This document shows, piece after piece, positions 15,204 to 34,738 of a DNA stretch of 36,189 nucleotides. Numbering within the stretch: the first letter of the stretch is position 1; the number at the start of each line of letters is the position of its first letter. The position numbers and the translations under genes are program-made. Source of the DNA: Candidatus Melainabacteria bacterium (lineage in GTDB: Bacteria > Cyanobacteriota > Vampirovibrionia > Obscuribacterales > Obscuribacteraceae); NCBI GenBank assembly GCA_027451745.1, contig DAIDIP010000025.1, positions 1 to 36,189 of the forward strand, written 5' to 3'. Below the pieces are notes generated by a model. It saw nothing but the letters and a program-made list of their open reading frames with translations, was not told where the DNA came from and searched no databases.

Positions 15204-18200
15204 TTAAACAGGAGCGTTGAAACTGCCTTCACCAATTGGAGGATAAATGTCTTCTTCCTCATCCTCTGGTTCAGTGGTCATTTCATGACCCTGGAAGCCA
15301 GTACCAGCAGGAATTAGACGTCCAATGATGACGTTTTCTTTCAAACCGCGCAACCAGTCTTTCTTACCTTCTACAGCTGCTTCAGTAAGAATTCTCGTGG
15401 TTTCTTGGAATGATGCAGCAGAGATGAAGCTTTCTGTATTCAAGCTAGCTTTGGTTATGCCAAGCAGTATAGGAGAATAAGCTGCCTCTATTTGCTCATT
15501 CATTGCCGCTTTTTCGTTTTCATTTTGAATATAGAAACGATCGAGCAATTCACCAGGAAGCATGATTGTTTCGCCAGGCTCATCTACACGTACTTTTCTA
15601 GTCATCTGACGAACAATTACTTCGATATGTTTGTCAGCGATTTCTACACCTTGCGAGCGATAAACTGATTGCACTTCATCAACTAGATATTTTTGTGCAG
15701 CTTCCAAACCACGCAGTCTTACAACATCGTGTGGATTTGGTGGACCATCGGTAAGTGCTTTACCAAGAGTAATTTCTTCGCTATCTTCAACAATGACGTT
15801 CAGTCCGGCTGGAATGGAGATTTCTTCTTCATTACCGTCGCCATAAACGACAAATAAATGGGTAAGATCTTCTTCCATTACTATTTTAGCTTTACCAGCT
15901 TTTTCAGCTAGGATCGCACTTTCTTTTGGTTTTCTTGCTTCTAGCAATTCTTCTACACGAGGCAAACCTTGAACGATATCTCCAGTTTTTTGTCTTTCAA
16001 AGATTAGAGTTGCTAGCAAATCGCCTCTTTGTACTAGAGCGCCATCTTCGCCTTGCAATTGAGTATTTGTAGAAATAAGATAAGGTCTACCTTTACGTAC
16101 AACTACTTCACCAGCTTCAACGCCAGTTACTTGCCCAGAATGAACTGCAGGTGTAGCTTTGGAAAGCGGATCACCAGCTTTCACTAGATCGCCTTCTTTA
16201 GATGTTGGATTACCTTTTATTTGATGAGGTATTTGCTGATCAGCTGTAATAAGCAAAATTCTGCGTTCATCTGTCTTGGATAATTGCACACGAGCAGAAG
16301 TCTTAGTTAACACCTGTGTTGTAGCCACAGGAGCTTTGGCTTCTACTATTTCGCCTGGCTCAACAGAGAGCAAGGTGACATTCAAATCTTGATCGCGACG
16401 CAACAGAATATTTTCTTGTACGACGATATTCAACTCTTCGCCAATTTCTACGATACCTTTGAGTGTTTGAAGATGTCCTTGCATCTGCAATACTAAAGAT
16501 GTACGAGTCAATTGAGCGCCATTGATATTGCGCACTTTTTCGCGATCTTTGAACAGCAATTGTGTCACTGCTCTTAGACTGATTTTGTCATCAGTGGCTT
16601 TGTATTTAAATTTAGTATCTAAAGGTTCAATCCAGAATTCTTCTACTGGTCTTACCAATACATACATGGTGCCATCTTCACGTTCGAAGATATTGACCAT
16701 CTTTCTTTCTTTGAATGTCAAACCAGCAATAATTTCAGTACCTGGTTCAACAACTTGCCCTTCTGGTACTTTTACTTCAGTTGGGTCGGTAATAACATGC
16801 AATTCACCAGGACGAATAACTACTTCGTGAATAATGTCATTATCAGCAACGATTTCAATGATCCCGTCCATATGGGCGAATACATCTTTAACCACTTCCT
16901 GACCAGCGGTGACTTGCTCTGCTGTTTCAGCTATCTTTAGTGAAATATCTTTGGAGATGAAATGCACTTCTTCAGGTACAAAGAGCACACGACCTGGCTT
17001 AATAATTACCCGTCTGTCGTCTACTTCTACACCATCATAAATAATCTCACCACCGCTGCGGACAACATTTTCACCTTCATCAATAAGTTCAGCAACGATT
17101 TTGCCGTTTTCAACGATTTCATCATTTACTACTTTGATAACAAAGTTTTCTTTTGTCTTTGCTACACGCCAGATATAACCTTGTTTGCTGGCTTCCAATT
17201 TGCCATTAGCAGCACCAACCGACGAAATAATGATGGTTATCTCTTTACCTTTAACAAGTCTAGTTACCTGCTTACGACCTGATTTAACCACTTCGGTTTC
17301 AATTTCAGGACCGAATCTGACTTCCCCACCATATTCAGTACCAATGGTTATTTCAGCCAAAACATCCAAAGGTTTAACGTCCTGACCGTCTTTAACTACA
17401 ACATGAGCACCTGAAGGCAAGTTATATACGTCACCTTCTAATACCCAGATAATGCCACTCCGGTTGGCAGTGCGTGAAATATTACCTTGTCTATCACGTT
17501 TTTCATCAGCCTGGAAGCCATGGAACATGACCCGACCAGAAATATCAGCAGTAATATCTTTTGTAGCCCGTTCAGTTAGGTTTTTCTTAGCACCTGGTGG
17601 ATCATATTCAGCTAACACGGTACCAGATTTTACCTCTGTACCAGATGGGATCAATATCAAACTACCTTGTGATATTGGCACACTATGTTCTTTGGTGCCA
17701 GATATTTTGATCACACCATCTTTGGTTGTTTGTTCAACAACATCACCATAGGCAGTACGTACAGAGCGGCTAGGAATATTGAAGGTCATAGTTCCAGCCC
17801 CTGGAGCCTTTAATTGGGCACGGCTAGCACCACCAGCTACAGCACCACCGGTGTGGAATGTTCTCATGGTGAGCTGAGTTCCAGGCTCACCGATTGATTG
17901 AGCAGCGATAATACCGATTGCTTCACCAATATCTACCAATCTGTTATTGGTTAATGACCAACCATAACATTTTTGGCAAACGCCAAATTGGCTCTCACAA
18001 GTAAGCGGTGAACGTACTTTGACATTTCTGTCTTTTTTGCTGCCAGCAGCAATTTTTTCAGCCAATTCACGATGAACTAAATCACCAGTTTTAGCAATGA
18101 TTTCACCTGTTTCTTGATCGGCAATGTCTTCAGCTAGCACACGACCATAAATACGCTCGGTCAATTTGACCATAGCTTTATCGCCTTCCATAATGGCTTG

Positions 18201-18887
18201 CATATTAATGCTGCGCTTTGACTTACAATCAAGATCGCGAACAATTACATCTTGAGCAACGTCTACTAGACGTCTAGTTAAATAACCAGAGTCAGCTGTT
18301 TTCAAGGCTGTATCTACAAGACCCTTACGAGCTCCGTAGCTGGAAATGATGTATTCAGTAACGTTCAAGCCTTCACGGAAATTGGCTTTAATTGGCAAGT
18401 CAATAATCTGACCTTGAGAATCAGCCATCAAACCACGCATACCAACTAACTGACGAACCTGAGAGATATTACCCCGGGCACCAGAGAAAGCCATCATATA
18501 CACTGGATTTAAGCGATCAAAATTATCCACAACTTCTTTTGTTAATTGGTCAGTGGTTGCAGACCAGGTATCGATAACTTTGTTATAGCGCTCAACTTCT
18601 GTGATTTCCCCAAGTTCATAACGTTTTTGAGCAGCTTCAATTTCTTTTTCTGCGCTAGAAATTAATCCACGTTTTGCTTCTGGAACATCAAGGTCATTAA
18701 TAGAAATGGTCACGCCAGCTTTAGTAGCATATTTAAAACCAAGATCTTTCAATGTATTAGCTAGCTCTGAAGATCGAGCTGTGCCAAATTTTTCATACAC
18801 TGTAGATAGGAGAGCGCCAAGTTTTTTCTTGTCCACAGTTTGGTTAATGAATTCCAACTGGTCCTTCTTATCGGTATTAGCCGCCAT
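15204..18887 (-). CDS. rpoC2: RNA polymerase beta' subunit, C-terminal part
   Basis: 1227 residues. It begins where cyanobacterial RpoC2 begins (INQTVDKKKLGALL). The segment SGARGNISQVRQLVGMRGL (about 135-153), the bridge helix (GARKG 185-189, then TADSGYLTRRLVD), the second zinc site (Cys221, Cys297, Cys304, Cys307) and the start of the trigger loop (QSIGEPGTQLTMRTFHTGG, with His345) are intact. From about 349 to 955 runs a long beta-rich insertion within the trigger loop, corresponding to the large SI3 of cyanobacteria. The conserved chain resumes at GLPRVEELLEARKPKE (about 967). An AGAGGAT ribosome site supports the start. It is the third gene of rpoB-rpoC1-rpoC2. The length is somewhat under that of Synechocystis. 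Confidence 0.97.
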   Translation of the reverse strand: MAANTDKKDQLEFINQTVDKKKLGALLSTVYEKFGTARSSELANTLKDLGFKYATKAGVTISINDLDVPEAKRGLISSAEKEIEAAQKRYELGEITEVERYNKVIDTWSATTDQLTKEVVDNFDRLNPVYMMAFSGARGNISQVRQLVGMRGLMADSQGQIIDLPIKANFREGLNVTEYIISSYGARKGLVDTALKTADSGYLTRRLVDVAQDVIVRDLDCKSKRSINMQAIMEGDKAMVKLTERIYGRVLAEDIADQETGEIIAKTGDLVHRELAEKIAAGSKKDRNVKVRSPLTCESQFGVCQKCYGWSLTNNRLVDIGEAIGIIAAQSIGEPGTQLTMRTFHTGGAVAGGASRAQLKAPGAGTMTFNIPSRSVRTAYGDVVEQTTKDGVIKISGTKEHSVPISQGSLILIPSGTEVKSGTVLAEYDPPGAKKNLTERATKDITADISGRVMFHGFQADEKRDRQGNISRTANRSGIIWVLEGDVYNLPSGAHVVVKDGQDVKPLDVLAEITIGTEYGGEVRFGPEIETEVVKSGRKQVTRLVKGKEITIIISSVGAANGKLEASKQGYIWRVAKTKENFVIKVVNDEIVENGKIVAELIDEGENVVRSGGEIIYDGVEVDDRRVIIKPGRVLFVPEEVHFISKDISLKIAETAEQVTAGQEVVKDVFAHMDGIIEIVADNDIIHEVVIRPGELHVITDPTEVKVPEGQVVEPGTEIIAGLTFKERKMVNIFEREDGTMYVLVRPVEEFWIEPLDTKFKYKATDDKISLRAVTQLLFKDREKVRNINGAQLTRTSLVLQMQGHLQTLKGIVEIGEELNIVVQENILLRRDQDLNVTLLSVEPGEIVEAKAPVATTQVLTKTSARVQLSKTDERRILLITADQQIPHQIKGNPTSKEGDLVKAGDPLSKATPAVHSGQVTGVEAGEVVVRKGRPYLISTNTQLQGEDGALVQRGDLLATLIFERQKTGDIVQGLPRVEELLEARKPKESAILAEKAGKAKIVMEEDLTHLFVVYGDGNEEEISIPAGLNVIVEDSEEITLGKALTDGPPNPHDVVRLRGLEAAQKYLVDEVQSVYRSQGVEIADKHIEVIVRQMTRKVRVDEPGETIMLPGELLDRFYIQNENEKAAMNEQIEAAYSPILLGITKASLNTESFISAASFQETTRILTEAAVEGKKDWLRGLKENVIIGRLIPAGTGFQGHEMTTEPEDEEEDIYPPIGEGSFNAPV

Positions 18888-18910
18888 GTATTTGATCCTC
18901 TTTTTATGCG

Positions 18911-18951
18911 CTGCCTCGCTTCAGTTCCTTCAGCTCGTACGCGCGTATCCT
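18911..18951. repeat. Degenerate GC-rich interspersed repeat, copy A (between rpoC1 and rpoC2)
   Basis: Begins CTGCCTCG and ends TATCCT on the plus strand, like the two copies at 26.1-26.2 kb. It contains the perfect palindrome TACGCGCGTA (18938-18947). It lies in the 109-base gap of an essential operon. Confidence 0.55.
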
Positions 18952-18966
18952 ACTTCGTTCACATGC

Positions 18967-18985
18967 GGATGCTTCACCAGCATCC
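18967..18985 (-). other. Stem-loop just after the rpoC1 stop
   Basis: GGATGC and GCATCC form a perfect 6-bp stem around a 7-base loop, 11 bases after the rpoC1 stop codon. No T-run follows, so it is not a Rho-independent terminator. A processing or stability element is possible. Confidence 0.4.
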
Positions 18986-18996
18986 TTGTTTCACTT

Positions 18997-20796
18997 TTAT
19001 GTAACTGATGCTACTGCTTCTCTTACTGCTTGATTGAAAATTACACGACCTGGTGTGGTTTCAATTGTTTGACCATCAGCGTCCCGCACTTTGATCTTGG
19101 CGTGTAAATCTACAACACCAGATTCATAAGCAGCACGTGCATCAGCCAAATTGACAAAACGCATACCAGCTCCCCTACATGCTTTAGGATCATCACTACC
19201 TGGCTTTTCGATAGTCAGATAATATATACCTAGAACCATGTCTTGAGTAGGTGTAATAGTTGGTCTACCAGTTGCTGGCAACAATATATTGTTAGAAGCT
19301 AGCATAAGCATATGAGCTTCTGATTGCGCCTCTACTGATAGTGGCACGTGCACAGCCATTTGGTCCCCGTCGAAGTCAGCGTTAAATGCCGAACAAACAA
19401 GCGGATGCAATTGAATAGCTCGTCCTTCTACCAATACTGGTTCGAAAGCTTGAATACCTAAGCGGTGAAGCGTAGGAGCACGGTTAAGCAATACTGGATG
19501 TCCTTGAATTACTTCTTCAAGAATTTCCCAAACAATTGCTGAACCTTTTTCGATTTGCTTCTTAGCTGATTTGATGTTTTGAACAATTTGACGTTCAATC
19601 AATTTGTTAATAACAAATGGTTTGAACAATTCAATTGCCATTTCACGAGGTAAACCACATTGATGTAATTTCAATGTTGGTCCGACAACAATTACAGATC
19701 GTCCAGAATAGTCAACCCGCTTACCTAACAAGTTTTGACGGAAACGACCTTGCTTACCTTCAATAATGTTAGACAAAGATTTCAATGGACGATTGTTTGG
19801 ACCAACCACAACTCTTCCACGGCGACCATTATCGATTAGAGCATCTACTGCTTCTTGCAACATCCGTTTTTCATTACGTACGATAATTTCAGGCGCACCC
19901 ATTTCTAATAGACGTGACAAACGATTATTACGGTTAATAACCCGCCTGTATAAGTCATTAAGATCAGATGTAGCAAAACGTCCACCATCTAATTGCACCA
20001 TTGGGCGCAAATCAGGTGGGGTTACCGGAAGATTATCTAATACAACCCAATTAGGATCTGTATTTGAATTAACTAGAGCTTCAACCAAGCGTAAGCGCTT
20101 AATGATTTTGGCTCTCTTTTGTTGCGAACCACCAGCTGTTGCTAGTTCTTCACGGAGTTGCCCAGATAATTCTTTCAATCCTGGCAAGTCCATTAGACGG
20201 CCACGATCTTCTTTGTTGTCTGGACGCTCATATACTGGTTTGGCTATTTCTTGCAAAAGTTGTTTAACGGCTTCTGCACCAATACCAACGTCAAATTGCA
20301 AATTGATATCATCTAAAAGTCTTTCATATTCTTCTTCTGAAAGAAGTTGATGTTTGGCCAAATCAGGCACATTGCCTGGATTGACTACAATATATGCATT
20401 GAAATAAACAACTTGCTCCAAATCACGCAATGGCAGGTCAAGCAAAAGACCAATATAACTTGGAATACCTTTAAGAAACCAGATATGGGTTACTGGGCAA
20501 GCCAAACGAATGTGTCCCATGCGATGACGACGAACTTTTGAATCAGTTACTTCTACACCACAACGCTCGCAAGTGATACCGCGATGACGAACTCGCTTAT
20601 ACTTACCGCAATAGCATTCCCAGTCCTTTGAGGGTCCAAAAATACGTTCGCAGAATAAACCATCTTTTTCTGGTTTCAAAGTACGATAGTTGATCGTCTC
20701 TGGTTTAGTGACTTCTCCGTGTGACCAGCTCAAAATACGTTCCGGTGACGCAACGCCAATTTTTATATAGTCAAAACGATCGATACTCGTAGCCAT
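18997..20796 (-). CDS. rpoC1: RNA polymerase gamma subunit (N-terminal part of beta')
   Basis: 599 residues. The N-terminal zinc site is C61-Y-C63 and C76-ER-C79. The absolutely conserved catalytic motif NADFDGDQ is at 472-479, so Asp474, Asp476 and Asp478 hold the Mg2+. [20 protein letters not shown] and the rudder and active-site helices are complete. The chain ends after [12 protein letters not shown], directly before the segment that starts RpoC2, so the two chains together make one full beta'. This split is shared by Cyanobacteria and their non-photosynthetic relatives and is the best taxonomic clue here. A strong AGGAGG site, 9 bases before the ATG, fixes the start. It lies 49 bases after rpoB. 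Confidence 0.98.
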
Positions 20797-29176: not shown

Positions 29177-31024
29177 TCAATTTGCATTCTTGGTGTATAA
29201 GTTTTCCAGTGTTTGAGCATATTTTTCTGCAACAACATTTCGTTTAATTTTCATTGTTGCTGTTAATTCGCCTGAATCTACCGACAAATCATGATCCAAA
29301 ATAGTGAAATGCTTAATACGTTCGTATTCAGCCAATTGATCTGGAAATTTAGCCATTTCTTTTTTTAGATATTGATGTAATTCTTTTGACTTTACAAGAT
29401 CAGTATATTTTTCAAATTGCCATTCTTTTTCTTTGGCAATTTCCATTGCTTTATTTTGGTCCAATGTTAGAAGTGCTACCAAATGTTTGTTTTGATCGCC
29501 AAATACTATCGCCTGGCTTATTGGCGGAATAGTTTTTAAAAGTGTTTCTACACGCTGCGGAGCAATGTTTTTACCCGCAGCATTAACAATAAGATCCTTC
29601 TTGCGATCAGTAATCTTTAAATAGCCATCATCATCAATATATCCAACATCACCTGTACGAAACCATCCATCTACAAAAACTTCATCAGTAGATTGAGTAT
29701 CTTTAAAATATCCGCCAAAAATACTTGGACCTTTGAGTAAGATCTCGCCATCCTCACCAATTTTTATTTCAATACAAGGCAAAGATGGACCAACTGTACC
29801 CAACTTGACTCTATCAAACCTGTTCACATTTGTGGGTGCAGCTGTCTCAGTCATACCATAGCCTTCCAAAGCAGGAATACCAATAGCATTAAAAAAGGCA
29901 AGCACTGATGGTGTCCCTGCAGCGCCTCCGCAAACAACAAAACGTAACCGTTTACCTATACGCTGGCGTAATTTGCGCAACACTAATGATTCAGCTAAAC
30001 GATGTTGTATTTTAAGTAATTCTGGAATTGATCTATCGTGAGCCTTCAAATTGACAATTTTTTCACCAACAGACACAGCCCAATTGATTAACCATTGCGA
30101 TAGGCTACTTGCACTAGCTATACCGTTTTTGACTTTGCTATAAATGCCATCTAAAACTCTTGGCACAGCCACAATAAGTGTTGGCTCTGTTTCCTGCATA
30201 TTTTTTGCCATGGTCTCAATCGACTCGGCATATGCACAAACACAACCTGCATAAATCCAATAATATTCCCCGCATACACGTTCAAAAACATGGGATACAG
30301 GTAAATAAGAAAAATAAACATCACTCTCAGTGATAGGAATGACACTTGGCAAATCAGCGAGCACAGCCATAATATTTGTATGCGTTAATGGCACGCCTTT
30401 AGGAGTGCCAGTGGTGCCTGAGGTGTAAATGATAGTAGCTACATCTTCATCTGAAGCTACTGCTACCAACTCTTTTATAGTTTGTGGTTTACTCTCTGCC
30501 AACTCTCTTCCAAACACACACAGCTCATTCAGATGAACAAATACATCACCTAATTGCTCGTATTTAGCTTTTATTTTTTCCCAGTCTTCTTCTTTTTTGG
30601 TCAATGAAGGTAGAAAAACAATTTTCTTTATCTGCGGGATTTTGTCTTTTATACTTACTAGTTTATTTAAAAGCCTTTCGCCCGATACAAAAATTGCCTC
30701 TGCTTCCGAATTATTTAAAATATATTCAATATCGCTTGAAGAACTATTTGGATAAATAGGGACTGAAACGGACCCAATGCTAATAGTAGCTAGATCAGCT
30801 GCAACCCACAGATAAGAAGTAGGAGAAAAGATTGCCACTGCCTTTTTTGTCGAGATAGGAACACTCGCTAATCCAAAAGCTATTTCTTGGACAAAATTAG
30901 ACAATTCCTGCCATGACATAGACTGATAGAGAGGACTTAATTGTTTGTAGCGCAATGCCGTTCGCGTGCCCAGCCTTTGAGCTTGCTCAAAAAACATTTG
31001 TCCAATAGTACTAGAAAACGTCAT
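29177..31024 (-). CDS. Long-chain fatty acid-CoA ligase (AMP-forming)
   Basis: A 615-residue ANL-family enzyme that activates a fatty acid to acyl-CoA through an acyl-adenylate. The phosphate loop YTSGTTGTPKGV is at 200-211, the adenine motif EGYGMTET at 387-394, the ribose Asp459 in WFRTGDVGYI, the hinge at KITDRKKDLIVNAAGK (470-485), and the final catalytic Lys in TATMKIKRN near the C-terminus. The length and the VSHVFERV motif fit the FadD15/long-chain group rather than acetyl-CoA synthetases. No membrane segment is seen. It may feed the thiolase and PlsC elsewhere in the window. The alpha/beta hydrolase gene lies 78 bases upstream on the same strand. Confidence 0.93.
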   Translation of the reverse strand: MTFSSTIGQMFFEQAQRLGTRTALRYKQLSPLYQSMSWQELSNFVQEIAFGLASVPISTKKAVAIFSPTSYLWVAADLATISIGSVSVPIYPNSSSSDIEYILNNSEAEAIFVSGERLLNKLVSIKDKIPQIKKIVFLPSLTKKEEDWEKIKAKYEQLGDVFVHLNELCVFGRELAESKPQTIKELVAVASDEDVATIIYTSGTTGTPKGVPLTHTNIMAVLADLPSVIPITESDVYFSYLPVSHVFERVCGEYYWIYAGCVCAYAESIETMAKNMQETEPTLIVAVPRVLDGIYSKVKNGIASASSLSQWLINWAVSVGEKIVNLKAHDRSIPELLKIQHRLAESLVLRKLRQRIGKRLRFVVCGGAAGTPSVLAFFNAIGIPALEGYGMTETAAPTNVNRFDRVKLGTVGPSLPCIEIKIGEDGEILLKGPSIFGGYFKDTQSTDEVFVDGWFRTGDVGYIDDDGYLKITDRKKDLIVNAAGKNIAPQRVETLLKTIPPISQAIVFGDQNKHLVALLTLDQNKAMEIAKEKEWQFEKYTDLVKSKELHQYLKKEMAKFPDQLAEYERIKHFTILDHDLSVDSGELTATMKIKRNVVAEKYAQTLENLYTKNAN

Positions 31025-31102: not shown

Positions 31103-32008
31103 TTAAACCTTATTTTTACCTAGCACTTCGCTTTGCTTATCTTTCTGGTTTTTGAGAGCCCGCTGGCTAATTGCATTAGTCCAATTAATCACTGATTCAG
31201 TTACCTCATCAATTGCTAAGTCAAGAGTTAGATCATGCATACTTTTAGACATAACAACTTTTTTCTTCTCCGGGTTTTTAACCTGTCGAAAAATTAAATC
31301 GCTATTTTTATTAGAAACAATACAATCTTTGCCTGCTGTAATCATCAGAAGAGGACAAGGTAAAACTATATTTTTGAACCGCAAAGCCAGCGTGGCAAAA
31401 AGCAAATCCAACAAAACTTTTGCCGGTACAGCTGCTCTATTGTTACCATATTTGTCTAACCAAACTTGTACTTGTTCGTCTTGAGTAATATCTTCCGTAT
31501 TGTATGGAAGAGTAATTTCTTTGTCGGGAAACAAAATAGCACTGACCAAACTAGACAATTGGTATGACATTGGAAAAAGTTTTGGATGTCCTCCAAAAGC
31601 TGGCGAAAGTAAAATTAGACCACTTGGCTTGCACCGGTTACAAGCCTTAAGAGCCAAAAGTCCGCCCATACTGTTTCCCAATAAAAATACCGGTTTGTCG
31701 CCCATTAGCGAATGTAAATAACACGAAACAGCTTCAATATCTTTTAGCCATCGATCAATACTTGTGTCAGTATCATCCCTACGACTACCAAAACCTGCCA
31801 AATCCAAAGCCATGACAAATGTATGTTTGACCTTTAAACGCCTTGCCAGAGCCTCAAACCAGCCACTATGCCCGCCCAAACCGTGAACAAGCAAAAAAGC
31901 AGTATTACTTTCTGAGGCTATGCCCCACGTTCTACAAGGAATCTTTTTGGCAGATTCGATTTCCAAGAGCGTAGCAGTAGGTGTTAAATTGATTTCTGGC
32001 TTATTCAT
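31103..32008 (-). CDS. Alpha/beta hydrolase, monoacylglycerol-lipase-like
   Basis: A 301-residue serine hydrolase. The oxyanion-hole motif is LLVHGLGGHSGWFEALA, the nucleophile Ser113 is in GNSMGG, the acid is Asp228 in TAGKDCIV and the base is His258 in SKSMHDLTLD. The order and spacing fit lysophospholipase or monoacylglycerol lipase (PldB-like) enzymes, and LDLAGFGSRRDD matches their second block. No signal peptide, so it is cytoplasmic. It is upstream of the acyl-CoA synthetase on the same strand: a lipase releasing fatty acid next to the enzyme that activates it is a sensible pair (inference). It is divergent from the TPR gene at 32058. Confidence 0.85.
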   Translation of the reverse strand: MNKPEINLTPTATLLEIESAKKIPCRTWGIASESNTAFLLVHGLGGHSGWFEALARRLKVKHTFVMALDLAGFGSRRDDTDTSIDRWLKDIEAVSCYLHSLMGDKPVFLLGNSMGGLLALKACNRCKPSGLILLSPAFGGHPKLFPMSYQLSSLVSAILFPDKEITLPYNTEDITQDEQVQVWLDKYGNNRAAVPAKVLLDLLFATLALRFKNIVLPCPLLMITAGKDCIVSNKNSDLIFRQVKNPEKKKVVMSKSMHDLTLDLAIDEVTESVINWTNAISQRALKNQKDKQSEVLGKNKV

Positions 32009-32057
32009 ATCAAGTTATTATAACTATATAGCTAAATTGTGAACTACAGGGAAAATA

Positions 32058-33578
32058 ATGACCCCAAAAATACCCAAAGAACATAAAGCCACTACTGGTA
32101 GTTTCAGACTACAATCTCTTATTTTGGTCACTATTGCCTGCTGTGTGTTATTTGTTTTGTTTGCTCAGCGGTATCTCTTTCGTCCTACTCCGTATATGCA
32201 AGCTGTCTCTTTAGTTAAAGCAGGAAAAGCTGCCCTTGCTCTACCTATGTTAGAAAATTTATTGCAACAGCATCCAGACAATACTAACTTGTTCCCTTGG
32301 TTGGCCCTTGCCTATCTAAGTTGTGATCGCGTTGCTGAGGGCAGAATAGCTCTTGATACTGCTTTGAGAGTAGGCTTGCCTGCAGATGATGTAATCGATG
32401 CACTTATTGCTTATGCCAATTTTTATGAAAGAAGGGATGATTTTGAAGAAGCAGAAAAACTTCTTGCTTCTGCCAGCACTAACTGTCCTGCTCAGTTATT
32501 AAATAATAGTCGCGCCAAACTCTATTTAAATTGGGCAGAAATAGACTTCGACAATAATGAAATTAAAAAAGGTGTTCAGCATTTGGAAACTGCAAGCCAG
32601 ATATCTCCATATGTTTCTGAAAATGTACGCTCTACCATTATCCGTCGATTAGCAGAAGGTTATAAACGTTTATCAGCTATTTGCGAAACTGAAAATAATA
32701 ATGATAAAGCAACCGTTTGGCTCGAAAAAAGTCTCAACATCCTGGACGATCCAACCAATCGAATGTCTCTAGCCCAACTCTATGCCAGCTTAAATAAAAC
32801 CCAAAAAGCCATTGAGAACTACGAAACAGTTGTTGATGCAGATACAAACAATTTGGAAGCACGACACCGCCTTATAGACTTACTTATACAATCAGGTAAT
32901 TACGAAAAAGCCCAAGAAGCATTAGTTGAACTAACCAACAAAGAAAAAAGTGTAGAAAATTACCAACAATTGGTAGAAGTATCTTTGCAATTGAAAAATT
33001 ATGCTGGTGCAGTTCATGCTCTAGAAGACGCCTGTGACTTAGGTGTTAAATCTGATCTTCTCAAACAACTACTATCTGTCTTAAATGACTGGGAATCGAC
33101 ACTTGCTAAAGAAGAAAAACTTGAAGAGGCAGCTTCAGTGAAAGGACATGCAGAGCGGGTTGCCGAACAGCTTAACGAAGCAATTTTAGAAGAAGCAAAA
33201 AGCAATGGTGAAGCTCTTGATACTAAAGACAAATTTGCCTCAGCTAAAAATCTTCCCGTAGCTCTAATTTCATCACGCATTTGGCTTTCAGCTGGCAGCT
33301 TAACTCCAGAAGGCGAGATCAAAATCAAAAATATTACAGGCAAAGCTGTGCGTGATCTGACTTTGACAGCAGTATTTTACGACCATACTTTAGGACACAA
33401 CAATGGTACAGTGAGGCTACCAGTTGCCACCCCCAGCTCGATTCCTTTTGCTGCGGGCAGCTCACGTACTTTATACTTTTCATGTCCAGACACTGTGCGG
33501 AGCGAACACCGTTTAGCTGTAAAATTATATTGGAAAGGATATTTTCTCAAAGAGTTTCCTGTAACAAAAGAGTCCTAA
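32058..33578 (+). CDS. Membrane-anchored TPR protein with C-terminal beta domain
   Basis: 506 residues. A basic N-terminus and one hydrophobic anchor (about 19-37, SLILVTIACCVLFVLFA) suggest a single-pass protein. Residues about 45-370 are TPR-like helical pairs (AVSLVKAGKAALALPMLENL, AQLYASLNKTQKAIENYETV, LIDLLIQSGNYEKAQEALVE). About 395-506 form a beta-rich domain (EIKIKNITGKAVRDLTLTAV, FAAGSSRTLYFSC) similar in style to the C-terminus of the 5235-6518 protein. It is the first gene of a four-gene unit; the next ATG is 5 bases after its stop. GGGAAAA precedes the start. A scaffold for envelope proteins is likely; the function is unknown. Confidence 0.8.
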   Translation: MTPKIPKEHKATTGSFRLQSLILVTIACCVLFVLFAQRYLFRPTPYMQAVSLVKAGKAALALPMLENLLQQHPDNTNLFPWLALAYLSCDRVAEGRIALDTALRVGLPADDVIDALIAYANFYERRDDFEEAEKLLASASTNCPAQLLNNSRAKLYLNWAEIDFDNNEIKKGVQHLETASQISPYVSENVRSTIIRRLAEGYKRLSAICETENNNDKATVWLEKSLNILDDPTNRMSLAQLYASLNKTQKAIENYETVVDADTNNLEARHRLIDLLIQSGNYEKAQEALVELTNKEKSVENYQQLVEVSLQLKNYAGAVHALEDACDLGVKSDLLKQLLSVLNDWESTLAKEEKLEEAASVKGHAERVAEQLNEAILEEAKSNGEALDTKDKFASAKNLPVALISSRIWLSAGSLTPEGEIKIKNITGKAVRDLTLTAVFYDHTLGHNNGTVRLPVATPSSIPFAAGSSRTLYFSCPDTVRSEHRLAVKLYWKGYFLKEFPVTKES

Positions 33579-33583
33579 CAAAT

Positions 33584-34003
33584 ATGGAAAGCAATCAAAA
33601 ACCTTGCAGACATGAATACGTCAAAATCTTTCAACGAAAGTACAAAGATTTTGGGCGCCGCATAGTCTCAACTAGAGGATATCTTCCCACTGGCTTTACT
33701 AACAAAGATTTCGCTTTTCTTTCAAGCGGAGCCTTCTGTTTTTGTGTAAATTGTCGTAAACGCTTGTTTCCTAATCGAGCAGAAAATAAAGCAGCTACAA
33801 TACAGAACCCTGTACTTGTTAGCCAACCTGTCGAAGTGGTAGATAATATATGGGCAGAAGAAAGTTCAGCGACAACACAAACAACTTCACAAGAAATAGA
33901 TGTAGAAGAATTACAAATAGAAACTATTGAAGTCACTGATCTTTTAGATACAAGCATTAGTGCCAACGTTAAAGAAGAAGTGGAAGAAGAAGGAGACGAA
34001 TGA
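33584..34003 (+). CDS. Small Cys/His protein with acidic tail, unknown function
   Basis: 139 residues from ATG 33584. A longer frame from 33482 overlaps the previous gene by 97 bases and is less likely. The N-terminal half is basic and contains Cys and His that could bind zinc (PCRHEY at the start, FCFCVNCRKRLFP near residue 55). The C-terminal half is strongly acidic (EEVEEEGDE at the end) and probably disordered. There is no membrane segment. It overlaps nothing but abuts both neighbours: 5 bases after the TPR gene, and its TGA is directly followed by the ATG of the 42-residue gene. Not recognised beyond the zinc-ribbon look. Confidence 0.7.
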   Translation: MESNQKPCRHEYVKIFQRKYKDFGRRIVSTRGYLPTGFTNKDFAFLSSGAFCFCVNCRKRLFPNRAENKAATIQNPVLVSQPVEVVDNIWAEESSATTQTTSQEIDVEELQIETIEVTDLLDTSISANVKEEVEEEGDE

Positions 34004-34132
34004 ATGAGAAAAATAATTGGAAAATTAATCTGTGCCTTAGTTATATTCCCACCGCTTTATATCGTCGGTAGATTCATCAAATGGTCCTGGAAATCATGGC
34101 AAAAAGAAATGGAAGACACTTCTGAGCAATAG
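34004..34132 (+). CDS. 42-residue single-span membrane protein
   Basis: A short gene: ATG at 34004, TAG at 34130-34132. The product is a basic start (MRKIIGK), one hydrophobic span (LICALVIFPPLYIVG) and a tail with three Trp and then acid residues (KWSWKSWQKEMEDTSEQ). A GGAGA ribosome site lies inside the end of the previous gene, and the start touches that gene's stop. The next gene starts 3 bases after it. The packing and the membrane profile argue for a real small subunit rather than chance. Confidence 0.7.
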   Translation: MRKIIGKLICALVIFPPLYIVGRFIKWSWKSWQKEMEDTSEQ

Positions 34133-34135
34133 AAC

Positions 34136-34738
34136 ATGACCAAATATTTATTGCGTTTGGTAAGAATAGCTCTCGTAAGCACTTTAGGCTTTGGCGGAGG
34201 CATAGGCTTTTTAGTTTTCCTGATTATTATGACCACTAAAGGACGCGAACACGCTGGACAGTATGGGCTGACTGCAGGCATCATTATCGGTCTTATATTT
34301 ACTACTTTATTCTTCTGTGTAATGATGCCCCTTGATCTTTTCTTTCGCTTTTTTGCTGCCAAAAGCAGCAAGAGCAAAGGAAGTGCAGGCATTTTAGAGC
34401 ATGAACAAATGCGAAAGCTCACTCTAAAAGGCACAAAAAAACACATACACTTCATTTGCCGGCAGGCTTTATTGGCTATACCAGGAATAAAAGATGTACA
34501 CGATGATGCTTTTAATGAAATAATGACAGCCTCGACCAATGCTAGTTGGCGCTCAGCCGGCGAAATCATAGAAGTGCGCATTTATAAAGGCGAGCCTGGA
34601 CAGTTTCACTTGCACTGTACAAGCCGACCATCAATGAAAAACGTTATTTTTGATTATGGCAAAAACTTCGAAAATGTAGAAGTCTGGAAAAACAAAAGTG
34701 AAGAGTTTGTCAGAACTGGTCTTGGCTTTAATCAGTAG
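34136..34738 (+). CDS. Two-helix membrane protein with cytoplasmic domain, unknown function
   Basis: 200 residues. Two hydrophobic segments (about 10-33, LVSTLGFGGGIGFLVFLII, and about 46-68, GIIIGLIFTTLFFCVMMPL) are joined by a short polar loop. A soluble domain of about 125 residues follows, with a basic linker (KSSKSKG) and alternating strands (GEIIEVRIYKG, FHLHCTSRP, ENVEVWKNKSEEFV). It is the last gene of the four-gene unit and ends 2 bases before the convergent stop of the broken gene at 34741. I do not recognise the soluble domain. Confidence 0.75.
   Translation: MTKYLLRLVRIALVSTLGFGGGIGFLVFLIIMTTKGREHAGQYGLTAGIIIGLIFTTLFFCVMMPLDLFFRFFAAKSSKSKGSAGILEHEQMRKLTLKGTKKHIHFICRQALLAIPGIKDVHDDAFNEIMTASTNASWRSAGEIIEVRIYKGEPGQFHLHCTSRPSMKNVIFDYGKNFENVEVWKNKSEEFVRTGLGFNQ

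Follow-up and report, generated by a model that had tools for sequence, protein, structure and literature searches.

In the 36,189-nucleotide stretch of Candidatus Melainabacteria DNA that was analysed (the window), four consecutive reading frames on the plus strand, designated A to D, were found with intergenic gaps of 5, 0 and 3 bases for A-B, B-C and C-D, respectively. Gene A (positions 32058 to 33578) encodes a TPR protein of 506 aa that is anchored in the membrane and ends in a beta-type domain, and gene B (33584 to 34003) a soluble Cys/His protein of 139 aa with a probable zinc site (C8/H10 and C52/C54/C57) and an acidic tail motif. Gene C (34004 to 34132) encodes a 42-residue membrane peptide with a conserved PP..Y..R(F/Y)..W core, and gene D (34136 to 34738) a protein of 200 aa with two transmembrane helices and a DUF1499-like soluble domain. 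The reading frames, their spacing and the protein features listed in a preliminary description of this DNA were all recovered.

Two lipid enzymes are encoded on the minus strand. A monoacylglycerol-lipase-like alpha/beta hydrolase (PF12146, Pfam E 4e-35; 31103 to 32008) lies 49 bp upstream of the operon in divergent orientation, and a FadD11-like long-chain acyl-CoA synthetase (PF00501, AMP-binding, Pfam E 4e-73; 29177 to 31024) follows downstream of the hydrolase. A symmetric -10-like box, TATTATA, is located at positions 32016 to 32022 between the divergent units.

Two observations concern other parts of the window. Open reading frames that by eye resemble IS66-type transposition proteins closely follow D and occupy the end of the contig (35168 to 36189). 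At positions 15204 to 20796, RNA polymerase beta' is apparently split into two genes of 599 and 1227 aa; a split beta' is usual in the cyanobacterial lineage.

Conservation of the four-gene operon in the Obscuribacterales

When 38 regions were fetched and read for gene order, A-B-C-D were found in the same order and on the same strand in all 31 loci that had the four genes on the contig (window included), representing approximately 20 genera. One contig that starts after A carried B-C-D (L070), and a second family, f2, from three genomes (L058 to L060) contained A-B-D without C. Since the homologues adjoin in identical order in more than 30 genomes, the gene cluster is more than a chance arrangement. 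Downstream of D, gene content differed from genome to genome while A-B-C-D stayed together.

Gene B was present in 49 of the 53 genomes of the order Obscuribacterales and in 22 of the 22 that were of high quality (completeness of 90% or more, contamination of 5% or less). Where genes seemed to be missing, the locus fell at a contig end (G004, G007 and G015) or the genome was 65% complete (G020). Orthologues of gene A were found in 36 of the 39 Obscuribacterales genomes searched (alignment A3). Within the order, the homologues of A, B and D were strong and those of C were weaker, at the matching place. No credible match to B was obtained among approximately 370 other genomes of the phylum, and B and C had no relative in any library searched. 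Two phylum matches of B (E 0.002 to 0.009) were rejected for stops inside, and matches of C outside the order were rejected either for stops inside or for E values of 0.02 to 1. A profile search of 386 genomes with D added one further genome, which carried a lone D-like gene. The operon A-B-C-D and its conservation are firmly established, and A-B-C-D is a signature locus of the uncultured, non-photosynthetic cyanobacterial order Obscuribacterales. The earlier view of a membrane-linked operon of unrecognised composition was thus borne out by the conserved order and by the existence of homologues for both the Cys/His protein and the 42-residue peptide.

The claim that tight packing implied co-translation did not hold up in relatives. 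There, the A-B and C-D gaps reached approximately 150 nt and some genes overlapped, so that co-translation cannot count as a conserved feature; the 5/0/3 packing is peculiar to the compact 3.0-Mb genome from which the window derives. Some of the large A-B gaps were artefacts of start choice, B having long Pro/Glu-rich N-terminal extensions of approximately 30 to 330 residues in some genera (L078:9466-11094 and L084:8750-9622), which are probably disordered. At L065:1-610, only a Pro/Glu-rich B-type region remains before the contig end.

Divergent lipid enzymes and a putative shared promoter region

Across from the operon, the hydrolase was present in 37 loci and the acyl-CoA synthetase in 36. 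Hydrolase orthologues were 37-62% identical in the main family and approximately 30% identical in f2. In many genomes the synteny ran on into genes for NHL, RsfS and PNPase proteins, and, since these are unrelated, the neighbourhood may be partly passive. In the genus of the window NHL-RsfS-PNPase is absent, yet the six genes, that is, the operon and the two enzymes, stay together. The identification of the upstream genes as beta-oxidation genes, which their size had suggested, was rejected, as they are those for NHL, RsfS and PNPase. In 10 loci, the genes downstream of D encoded EtfB, EtfA and ETF-QO, which carry the electrons of acyl-CoA dehydrogenation.

There are two main alternatives to the lipid-coupled complex proposed below, and the neighbourhood bears directly on one of them, namely that the operon encodes independent small membrane and cytoplasmic proteins that are co-expressed only, form no stable complex and lie in a passively syntenic neighbourhood. 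Such proteins would tolerate the variable spacing seen among relatives and the absence of C in f2, and synteny of RsfS and PNPase in many loci is of the kind expected from passive linkage. They would not be expected to keep an identical order in 31/31 complete loci from approximately 20 genera, nor to stay together while the genes downstream of D vary, and co-expression without a complex is rather unlikely.

The TATTATA box was present in 25 of the 33 orthologous regions between the hydrolase and A, compared to 0.6 expected by shuffling. The region reads as the consensus TATAAT on the hydrolase strand and as TATTAT on the A strand. In published bidirectional bacterial promoters with a symmetric -10, the usual distance between start sites is 18 bp (PMC10268837). 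The box resembles these promoters in presenting a -10 on both strands, with an offset that predicts start sites 18 bp apart. In contrast to them, the orthologous regions showed no enrichment of initiating bases at the predicted start-site positions, and for this reason a bidirectional promoter, with TATTATA as a symmetric -10 common to both divergent units, is put forward as a suggestion. On the hydrolase side, TATAAT lies very near the start codon (32009 to 32022 in the window), so that in 22 of 25 regions the hydrolase messenger is predicted to have a leader of 0-5 nt and thus to be leaderless or nearly so.

Protein A and a possible link to envelope assembly

Protein A has one N-terminal hydrophobic segment followed by TPRs (Pfam TPR_19, E 1e-18). 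Single-pass TPR envelope scaffolds likewise have one N-terminal anchor and then TPRs. Unlike these, A passed the cut-off of none of the named TPR equivalogs in NCBIfam, and its C-terminal domain, which is of beta type by sequence pattern, had no Pfam match. The charge balance slightly favours an N-in orientation of A, which would place the TPRs outside, although the bias is slight.

These features bear on the second main alternative, an envelope-assembly or secretion helper in which A would carry its TPRs outside the cytoplasm as the scaffold of an envelope or surface structure, B, C and D would form its membrane and cytoplasmic base, and the lipid enzymes would be unrelated. A TPR region and a beta domain behind one anchor resemble assembly factors, NCBIfam matches of A to MamA, PilW, LapB and BepA were seen that were weak and fell far short of the cut-offs, and the synteny reaches unrelated genes. 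Nevertheless, no secretion, pilus or envelope genes were linked to the operon in any locus examined, and in nearly all loci the promoter region is common with the lipid enzymes, and a helper of this kind is rather unlikely.

The 42-residue peptide C

Protein C contains one hydrophobic segment with basic flanks on both sides, and nothing significant was found for it in Pfam, NCBIfam or PDB sequence searches. The PP..Y..R(F/Y)..W core was common to 32 homologues at the same place in the locus. In comparison with a sister species, pS and pN were 0.91 and 0.27, respectively, in the coding frame, and pN exceeded pS in both remaining frames. C is a real gene under purifying selection, and it is dispensable in f2. 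Conserved as it is throughout the main family, this micropeptide offers a clean experimental target.

The Cys/His protein B

Residues C8, H10, C52, C54 and C57 of B were invariant in 31 sequences, and B thereby has a conserved Cys/His ligand set, as expected of a zinc-ribbon protein. A hydrophobic segment was absent from every homologue. Pfam, NCBIfam and PDB sequence searches returned nothing significant, and no known zinc-ribbon fold or family was matched, there being no Foldseek hit with E <1 and no Pfam match. Judged by its ligand pattern, B is probably a zinc protein.

The N-terminal part of B is basic and the acidic tail motif is conserved, and weak, non-significant profile matches to the ribosomal proteins eS25 and L40 were seen. 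Combined with the Cys/His cluster, these properties would also suit a nucleic-acid-binding regulator that A, C and D control at the membrane, in a form of membrane-tethered gene regulation; as B matches no fold or family, a regulatory role of this sort appears very unlikely.

Protein D is a distant relative of DUF1499

Protein D has two hydrophobic segments. The AlphaFold2 model (mean pLDDT 85.6) contained helices at residues 2-35 and 40-78 and a domain at residues 91-194 with the topology beta-alpha-beta-beta-beta-beta-alpha. Nothing significant was found for D in Pfam, NCBIfam or PDB sequence searches. Relative to the curated Pfam cut-off of 22.6 bits for DUF1499 (PF07386), the window protein gave no match and its best homologue reached 12.5 bits, and a DUF1499 search of the genome of the window found none. 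When the D domain was compared by hhalign with a profile built from 25 cyanobacterial DUF1499 domains, a match over 99 columns was obtained (Prob 93.6, E 2e-7) with a score of 42.7, compared to 16.9 for the best of 100 column shuffles and 12.3 for the reversed profile. Because the profile match far exceeds the shuffles, the soluble domain of D can be assigned by profile comparison as a distant DUF1499 relative, within a widespread unnamed family. It shares with DUF1499 the C-terminal D-x-G-x-N motif before the last helix, which falls within the 99-column match. D differs from DUF1499 in that two transmembrane helices precede the domain and in lacking both the RSASR motif and the N-terminal CP...NCV portion. 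DUF1499 is itself widespread, and no function is given for it in the literature found to mention the family.

In Foldseek searches, the folds nearest to D were of the KA1 type (TM by target 0.59-0.61) and the START/Bet v 1 (SRPBCC) type (0.2-0.5), both weak at E 6e-4 or worse with the whole chain, membrane helices included, as query. KA1 domains bind anionic phospholipids (PMC6451319). The beta-alpha-beta4-alpha topology modelled for D resembles that of KA1 and START/Bet v 1 domains; D differs from them in having no sequence similarity, weak scores and a membrane anchor. From the positive-inside pattern, the soluble domain of D is predicted to be cytoplasmic.

A possible complex coupled to acyl-lipid turnover

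We tentatively propose that A-B-C-D form an order-specific inner-membrane complex that works with the hydrolase and the synthetase in acyl-lipid turnover, a possibility to which we assign somewhat less than even probability. The hydrolase would release acyl chains from membrane lipid, and the synthetase would turn the freed chains back into acyl-CoA. D would be anchored by its two helices so that its START/KA1-like domain, facing the cytoplasm, can bind either the membrane surface or a ligand of lipid or acyl type. B could be a cytoplasmic adaptor that is stabilised by zinc and docks a partner through its acidic tail motif. C could act as a small subunit packed in the membrane, and A as a scaffold towards the envelope, with the TPRs and the beta domain probably on the outer side.

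Such a complex is consistent with the order and strand kept in the 31 complete loci, with the presence of B in every high-quality genome, with the constraint on B and C, and with the hydrolase and synthetase lying opposite in 37 and 36 loci, respectively, and still adjacent in the genus of the window. The TATTATA box common to 25/33 regions and the EtfB, EtfA and ETF-QO genes in 10 loci point the same way, as do the predicted cytoplasmic position of the D domain, its relation to DUF1499 and its nearest folds, which bind ligands or phospholipids. Against the lipid-coupled complex, synteny past the synthetase takes in the unrelated NHL, RsfS and PNPase genes, f2 is without C, D-like genes occur elsewhere in unrelated contexts such as hutU-hutI in Vampirovibrio, D has weak Foldseek matches (TM 0.3-0.6), and the charge bias for the topology of A is slight. 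A further-reaching version is unlikely. In it, the locus would encode an undescribed membrane machine that is a defining trait of the Obscuribacterales, and one bidirectional promoter would serve all six genes. The TPR scaffold, the zinc adaptor, the 42-residue subunit and D, as a lipid-binding protein related to DUF1499, would together control a cycle of acyl-lipid release and reactivation. The link between D and DUF1499, together with that between the operon and the lipid enzymes, replaces "function unknown" with a testable lipid hypothesis.

D-like proteins at other loci

In a collection scan, D-like genes were found in Metabacillus, Pseudoxanthomonas, a planctomycete-type MAG, archaea and a Vampirovibrio. 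Bacteria and archaea have a widespread family of two-helix membrane proteins that contain a DYGKN(Y/F)xN motif and a domain resembling DUF1499, and this family has no Pfam or NCBIfam name (members at L091:9696-10244, L136:4758-5423, L139:926-1501 and L141:1922-2452), and the five D-like proteins tested gave no significant Pfam or NCBIfam match. The gene of Vampirovibrio sp. (L143:4887-5489) lies between hutU and hutI in an apparent histidine-degradation operon. Moreover, some Obscuribacterales carry extra, divergent D-like proteins (L145:6242-6904, L146:5210-6331, L147:6406-7449, L148:5902-6894 and L149:6494-7225), several of which are fused to other N-terminal regions.
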